Positions 290 to 10,979 of a stretch of 22,073 nucleotides of DNA are shown piece after piece. Numbering within the stretch: the stretch's first letter is position 1; each line of letters opens with the position of its first letter. The DNA is taken from IMG/VR virus record IMGVR_UViG_3300031857_001564, positions 1-22,073 of that record; one strand, 5' to 3'. Origin of the DNA: a virus. The position numbers and the translations under genes are program-made. Below the pieces are notes generated by a model that was given only the letters and a program-made list of their open reading frames with translations, was not told the origin of the DNA and did no database searches.

Positions 290-415
290 ATCTCAAGCCA
301 GTCAAATCGACACACGGGATAATGCCACGCAAGACGCGGAATCCCCGCGTCAAGCGTGTCAAAACAGCGTCGCACGCGACGCCATCTCGAGTGTCGATTG
401 TGACAGGCTTGAGGT
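290..415 (+). ncRNA. Candidate structured RNA or DNA element, three-way junction
   Basis: The sequence folds on paper into a near-ideal three-way junction. The closing stem pairs 292-313 with 391-413: 8 bp (CTCAAGCC/GGCTTGAG), an A-A mismatch (300/405), 4 bp, a bulged G400, then 9 bp, 21 pairs in all. Arm 1 is 326-358: CACGC/GCGTG, a symmetric AA/AA internal loop, then GACGCGG/CCGCGTC around a five-base AATCC loop. Arm 2 is 367-382: GCGTCG-CACG-CGACGC, a perfect stem with a tetraloop. Junction strands are 314-325, 359-366 and 383-390. It sits just upstream of the OB-fold gene, so it may be an mRNA leader, a free small RNA or a replication or packaging site. I do not recognise it as a known RNA class. 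The pairing is seen directly; the function is unknown. Confidence 0.55.
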
Positions 416-4310: not shown

Positions 4311-4316
4311 AACCAA

Positions 4317-4362
4317 AGAGGAGACTAGTGGACATAAAATCCACTAGTTTCCTCTTTTTTTT
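4317..4362 (+). terminator. Intrinsic terminator ending the amidoligase-WhiB operon
   Basis: Positions 4317-4331 pair with 4341-4355 over 15 positions (one G-T wobble at 4323/4349) around the nine-base loop 4332-4340. The inner stem contains ACTAGTGG/CCACTAGT, and the 3' arm runs into eight or more T residues. This is a strong rho-independent terminator on the + strand. Confidence 0.93.
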
Positions 4363-4379
4363 AGTACAAATCTTTTACT

Positions 4380-4397
4380 CTTTGAGAACTATCGCGT
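4380..4397 (+). promoter_or_regulatory. Conserved post-terminator motif, copy 2
   Basis: CTTTGAGAACTATCGCGT, 16 of 18 identical to the motif at 849-866 and starting 18 bases after the preceding T-run, against 19 bases for copy 1. The two differences are G/A at position 6 and G/C at position 10. Here it lies about 50 bases upstream of a sigma-70-like promoter, so it may be a second promoter or an operator. Confidence 0.5.
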
Positions 4398-4424
4398 GTG
4401 GTATACTCTCGTCTACAAATTGCG

Positions 4425-4435
4425 ACACGCCGTGT
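4425..4435 (+). promoter_or_regulatory. Short palindrome upstream of promoter
   Basis: ACACG-C-CGTGT is an 11-base perfect inverted repeat ending nine bases before the -35 box of the promoter at 4445. A related GCGTGTG occurs at 4394-4400. The spacing suits an activator or repressor site, but short palindromes also arise by chance. Confidence 0.3.
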
Positions 4436-4444
4436 GTGTTTGTG

Positions 4445-4474
4445 TTGACAAAAGAAAAACCCCTGTATTATAAT
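4445..4474 (+). promoter_or_regulatory. Near-consensus sigma-70/sigma-A promoter
   Basis: TTGACA (4445-4450) and TATAAT (4469-4474), both perfect, are separated by 18 bases. Transcription should start near 4481, giving a leader of about 17 bases with a GAAGGGA ribosome binding site (4484-4490) before ATG 4498. It should drive the whole replication operon using the host housekeeping sigma factor. Confidence 0.85.
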
Positions 4475-10763: not shown

Positions 10764-10918
10764 TGAGCACTGATAGTTTATTATTATTTATGATGGGTTA
10801 TGTACTAATTGGAGTTCCGTTAGGATTGATACTTGCTAATCTTATGTTGGCACGAAGATATGATATTAAAGTAGCGAAGCCCTCTAAAAACAAAAATAAG
10901 CCCCTATCCTCTAGGTAG
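10763..10918 (+). CDS. Small membrane protein, last gene of early operon
   Basis: A 51-residue protein whose ATG overlaps the previous stop (TAATG). Residues 5-30 are strongly hydrophobic (SLLLFMMGYVLIGVPLGLIL) and are followed by RR and a lysine-rich tail (KVAKPSKNKNK), which indicates one membrane span with a basic cytoplasmic end. The final codons run into the convergent terminator structure. No family is recognised; overlap and packing support it as a real gene. Confidence 0.65.
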   Translation: MSTDSLLLFMMGYVLIGVPLGLILANLMLARRYDIKVAKPSKNKNKPLSSR

Positions 10919-10979
10919 GGTGGGTACCTGGAAGATAGGGGCAACTTGCCTGAGATTCAATCTCAGACGTTTTTAGAGG
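10881..10979. terminator. Bidirectional terminator with nested stems
   Basis: Outer arms CCTCTAAAAAC (10881-10891) and GTTTTTAGAGG (10969-10979) are perfectly complementary. Inside are two hairpins: GCCCCTATC/GATAGGGGC (10900-10908/10934-10942), containing AGGTA/TACCT (10913-10917/10925-10929), and CTGAGAT-TCA-ATCTCAG (10950-10966). On the - strand the first hairpin is followed by a T-rich tail (10899 down to 10886); on the + strand the second is followed by ACGTTTTT. It lies exactly between convergent gene blocks and can end both. Confidence 0.85.

Follow-up and report, generated by a model that had tools for sequence, protein, structure and literature searches.

Gene content and organisation of the locus

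The window, meaning the whole stretch of DNA analysed here, corresponds to a linear virus record in IMG/VR, 22,073 bases long. The virus is a Caudoviricetes phage from freshwater that infects bacteria and is related to the Planktophila phages LanE43-AprE7 and LanE43-AprF5 (OX376640 and OX376641), the isolation of which has been described (PMC10202952). It groups with these cultured phages with identities of 59% for the helicase, 53% for the terminase and 55–57% for the portal protein, and because of this grouping its host order is probably Nanopelagicales.

A structured element at 290-415 is situated in a non-coding gap, with a leftward terminase gene on one side and a rightward single-gene unit on the other. 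Only two further records carry it, L084, identical to the window over the leader region, and L085, with 95% identity over that region. Record L084 extends upstream and holds the large-terminase gene, leftward (L084:4151-6022), with a portal-like gene beyond. The following features were located:

175-289, + strand: rapidly changing, GC-rich stretch before the element, of which 252-292 is about 30% different in L085
290-415, + strand: three-way-junction element, closing helix P1 290-320/384-415 (29 pairs, mismatches A300/A405 and A314/A390, bulged G400)
323-361, + strand: arm 1 (P2), pairs 323-324/360-361, 326-330/354-358 and 333-339/345-351, AA/AA internal loop 331-332/352-353, loop 340-344
367-382, + strand: arm 2 (P3), 6 pairs, CACG loop 373-376
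423-453, + strand: A/U-rich hairpin of 13 pairs (z −6.7), separating the junction element from the ribosome-binding site, with no change in its core 425-451 in L085
454-470, + strand: A-rich spacer with Shine-Dalgarno AGGAG before ATG 471, read from the sequence and identical in L085
471-779, + strand: gene for an OB-fold, SSB-like protein of 102 aa without Pfam or PHROG family (dN 0.20, dS 1.25 against L085)
786-823, + strand: intrinsic terminator from the terminator scan, 17 pairs and a T7 tail, ending the SSB unit

The product of 471-779 gave no SSB family sequence match in Pfam, PHROG or the PDB sequences. Its AlphaFold2 model is an OB-fold (pLDDT 76) with 33 PDB structure matches at E≤0.001, nearly all SSB and a few PriB or others, the best being bacterial SSBs. 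The first-pass annotation had proposed that this gene may bind single-stranded DNA (ssDNA), and on the strength of the predicted fold and these matches an ssDNA-binding protein is likely; it would be of the SSB type but overlooked by profile libraries.

The units after the SSB unit encode amidoligase-like, glutamine-amidotransferase-like and WhiB proteins. At 4315-4474, a strong terminator (4315-4357) and then a perfect TTGACA-18-TATAAT promoter (4445-4474) divide WhiB from the replication unit, which contains an exonuclease, a DnaB-like helicase, a resolvase, a primase and a sigma factor.

The non-coding nature of the element, as first proposed, is borne out by the overlapping ORF 196-432, which is frameshifted in L085. 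A protein-coding reading of the 36-codon frame 322-432 was rejected as well: the frame is open in L085, but nearly all C-terminal changes alter the amino acid. The upstream GTG (423), considered as an alternative start for the SSB gene, is lost in L085. In the stretch at 175-289, small GC-rich hairpins are present with sequences swapped between the window and L085 (e.g. CACGCTAGCGCGTG in L085).

Predicted fold of the element

The fold of 290-415 is real. Its minimum free energy is −71.6 kcal/mol compared to −35.3 kcal/mol for dinucleotide-shuffled controls (z −10.5), placing the element about 36 kcal/mol below them. For 285-420 the values are −72.8 and −36.5±3.6 kcal/mol (z −10.0), a value reached by 0 of 200 shuffles, and a z of about −10 was obtained for both haplotypes (window and L085). 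The longer segment 175-470, for which a shuffled-sequence comparison had been recommended, gave a z of −8.7. The three-armed order is thus beyond chance, as had been supposed. The prediction is a nested three-way junction, obtained with folding programs that do not model pseudoknots.

Several details of the initial description recur in this fold, namely the A300/A405 mismatch, the bulged G400 and the loops of both arms, internal AA/AA in 326-358 and CACG in 367-382. The closing stem is also present, but with 29 pairs over 290-320/384-415 instead of the 21 first counted, the helix crossing the A314/A390 mismatch and running on through 315-320/384-389. Arm 1 gains two pairs (323-324/360-361). 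With both helices longer, the junction is therefore tighter, and the junction strands, described before as long and purine-rich, turn out to be short: AA (321-322), five bases (362-366) and C (383).

A second three-way-junction-shaped fold was observed between convergent genes at 10881-10978, with an 11-pair CCTCTAAAAAC/GTTTTTAGAGG stem, two arms and a hairpin followed by a T-run on each strand. From its sequence it looks like a bidirectional terminator, the T-runs pairing with each other.

Strand and transcription signals

As RNA, the minus strand of 290-415 folds at −74.2 kcal/mol (z −9.0) and is as stable as the plus strand. Folding of ssDNA is strong on both strands (z −9.7 and −10.7), so energy alone picks neither strand nor RNA over DNA. 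Two G-U pairs in the plus-strand fold (291-414 and 317-387) weakly favour plus-strand RNA.

The strong folding of both DNA strands would also suit an element acting at the DNA level, whose inverted repeats extrude or form in ssDNA to give a replication-initiation or protein-binding site beside the SSB gene. The element is located at the divergence point of leftward and rightward genes, where the GC-skew changes sign, and its primary sequence including the loops is conserved beyond pairing alone; ssDNA structure was moreover considered by Weinberg et al. (PMC2864571) for the SSB-associated STAXI motif. However, transcription direction by itself would also predict the skew change, a repeat scan of 1-1000 detected neither iterons nor direct repeats near the element, and the two G-U pairs are kept on the + strand. 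On balance a DNA-level function appears rather unlikely. An integron attC-type site was rejected, since inspection of 280-425 showed the RYYYAAC/GTTRRRY core boxes to be absent at the stem base.

A promoter scan found no sigma-70-like promoter upstream of the element on the + strand; a phage-sigma promoter or a start farther away could explain this. The terminator scan detected no intrinsic terminator (hairpin then T-run) within 290-455. In folding, accessibility of the Shine-Dalgarno sequence varies with the assumed transcript start. These signals bear on a free small non-coding or antisense RNA unrelated to SSB control, possibly a minus-strand product, which would accord with the self-contained stable fold and the equal stability of the minus strand. 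It is nevertheless decidedly unlikely, as no promoter-terminator pair surrounds the element alone, the first strong terminator follows the gene and the sigma-70-like promoter was not found.

Sequence constraint between two haplotypes

In the collections searched, two distinct haplotypes of the element occur. Most of the genome differs by about 1–4% between the window and L085, with a divergent tract from about 252 to 785. Within this tract, 12 changes fall in 252-292, six in 413-424 and 81 in the 303 compared positions of the SSB gene, flanks and gene being about 27–50% different in L085. Block 293-412 has a single change, G400A at the bulge, and block 425-482, comprising the hairpin, the ribosome site and the first codons, has none. 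At the divergence rate of the gene, so few changes would arise by chance with a probability of about 3×10−15 (293-412) and 1×10−8 (425-482). The edges of both conserved blocks coincide with those of the predicted stem and hairpin, and arms P2 and P3 are without differences among the three records. Pair C292-G413 is replaced by A-U in L085, a compensatory change; with a single such pair in two haplotypes, a covariation test lacks statistical power. In L085 the outermost pair, 290-415, no longer forms.

Selection on both elements would be the simplest reading of the two conserved blocks in this alignment. The alternative is mosaic recombination: with a genome background that differs by only about 1–4%, it could leave divergent patches on either side of near-identical blocks. 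Taken further, the element would be a neutral relic, for instance a MITE-like inverted-repeat insertion, and owe its identity in L085 to mosaic recombination only. Its restriction to one lineage and a background about 99% identical around the divergent tract agree with such an origin. Yet exact-pattern scans of viral and genome contigs revealed no second copy and the repeat scan of 1-1000 no repeat family, while the edges of conserved blocks fit structural edges at two separate places and the sole change in 293-412 lies on the bulge. A neutral relic is very unlikely.

Processing sites of phages T7 and lambda are cut by RNase III, which leaves a 5′ hairpin as protection. The near-perfect closing helix of 29 pairs, with another hairpin after it that immediately precedes the ribosome site, resembles such a processing or mRNA-stabilising site, where the early-transcript duplex would be cut and the remaining 5′ hairpin would protect the SSB message. 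However, loops, arms and junction vary as little as the stem does, a conservation beyond the needs of a generic duplex substrate, and this function is judged unlikely.

The SSB-like gene itself (471-785) is a divergence hot spot, with 73% amino acid identity to L085 at the dS of 1.25, the genomes being otherwise 96–99% identical. This pattern suggests allele replacement.

Distribution and packaging-related motifs

Exact-pattern scans of viral contigs returned L084 and L085 only, and the same scans of genome contigs returned no match to the element. Searches with a covariance model (R1) did not detect it in 160 relatives (80 by helicase and 80 by terminase) or in the cultured phages AprE7 and AprF5. 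Records L170-L174, retrieved with a gapped stem pattern, were rejected: their arms and context do not match and R1 does not recognise them. A blast search of phage and plasmid records produced no relevant match and a helicase search of genome contigs no relative. As had been noted before, no RNA family corresponds to the element: Rfam 15 gave no match at the gathering threshold for the window or for L084, L085, L175 and L176, and permissive Rfam scans gave chance-level matches only.

The packaging RNA of phi29 is a phage RNA built on a three-way junction. An assembly of that type was rejected here, since loop AAUCC cannot pair with loop CACG, precluding loop-loop assembly, and the element is not conserved with the terminase. 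More generally, its position in the terminase-proximal intergenic region would allow a packaging (cos/pac) element or a packaging RNA of the adjacent terminase. This is extremely improbable, given its occurrence in 0 of 80 terminase relatives, its absence from cultured AprE7/AprF5 and the location of shared terminase-proximal motifs about 200–400 bases upstream of it.

Such terminase-proximal intergenic motifs, e.g. CAGGTCAGA and TTTAACACTCTGGGGTT, were observed at about 6110-6350 of L084 (window −190 to 50), in L086-L164 and at 2300-3158 of L176. The phages sharing them have terminases only 50–59% identical, and the motifs are a candidate packaging site. The motif GTGTCGA, also present in AprE7, was discarded as a family operator for lack of enrichment upstream of terminases (2 occurrences in 48 kb there against 15 in 300 kb).

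Comparison with known leaders and SSB-associated motifs

In phage T4, gp32 binds a folded element in its leader and spreads over the adjacent ribosome site, which contains UUAAA (PMC535899). T4 and RB69 are documented cases in which a phage SSB is controlled directly by its own message, and an M13-like case is cited as well (PMC535899). As in the gene 32 operators of T4 and RB69, a folded element, predicted here as RNA, is found 5′ of a gene for a putative phage ssDNA-binding protein, with an A/U-rich ribosome-binding region including UUAAA, probably less structured, after it. The position is that of a gp32-type operator, directly upstream of an OB-fold gene with SSBs as best structural matches. 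In region 417-433, UUAAA occurs in two copies in the window and in one in L085, partly inside the predicted hairpin. The predicted architecture is different: the operator of T4 and RB69 is a pseudoknot of about 28 bases, whereas the element described here is a 126-base three-way junction, nested in a prediction that did not score pseudoknots. Unlike in T4 and RB69, the predicted protein resembles bacterial SSB and an extra A/U-rich hairpin precedes the ribosome site. By analogy, the element would at most work like a gene 32-type operator, to which it is unrelated.

The nearest known SSB-associated motif is STAXI, a structured nucleic acid near SSB and other DNA-handling genes for which an RNA or ssDNA nature is debated (Weinberg et al. 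2010, PMC2864571). The STAXI motif consists of pseudoknots in tandem, in contrast to the single three-way junction found here; the element has no Rfam match, and 1-1000 holds no direct repeats.

Structured leaders were also observed in early operons within the phage family (L042:18240-18380, L059:10750-10885 and L068:9985-10115, all on the − strand), directly behind a TTGACT-17-GATAAT-like promoter. They share with the element the position before the first gene of an early unit, but they are hairpins without a junction and have no sequence relation to it. Six of 30 pairs in these hairpins are changed on both sides, in three sequences only. A GTACGATAATCGTAC palindrome is repeated before successive genes there. 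Clusters of a TTTGTGTYGG repeat, on one strand, precede the early promoter in many related phages (L042, L010, L018 and L083); the window has no such cluster.

A proposed structured leader of the SSB unit

The layout, one gene closed by a terminator of its own, and the constraint pattern favour the element as a cis-acting structured 5′ leader of the single-gene SSB unit (leader 290-470, gene 471-779, terminator 786-823), a function to which we assign about an even chance. It is plausible in this family because related freshwater phages carry other structured early leaders with compensatory changes. Against the leader function stand the + strand without sigma-70-like promoter, the equally stable minus strand, mosaic recombination as a possible source of the conserved blocks, the loss of pair 290-415 in L085 and the absence of the element from distant relatives. 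Plus-strand transcription through the element, binding by a protein and the direction of control are what we infer for such a leader.

In the proposed mechanism, the transcript would fold into the rigid three-way junction and the A/U-rich hairpin, and the A-rich ribosome-binding stretch would stay open or weakly structured. A protein recognising the junction would then control how well the SSB message is translated or how stable it is. Most simply, this protein would be the SSB, which, following the T4/RB69 gene 32 precedent, could nucleate on the folded part, spread over the A-rich stretch and cover the ribosome region, limiting translation once ssDNA is saturated.

A more specific proposal is tentative and rather improbable. 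The element would represent a new class of phage regulatory RNA, with an architecture unlike that of T4 gene 32: a three-way-junction operator bound sequence-specifically by a bacterial-type (OB-fold) phage SSB and mediating feedback on SSB in streamlined freshwater actinobacterial phages. The element is well-defined and constrained but rare, with three metagenome records so far. If the proposal is true, an independent and architecturally different leader before an SSB gene that had gone unrecognised would point to repeated evolution of such control, and the locus would offer a compact system for how an SSB distinguishes its own message from bulk nucleic acid.
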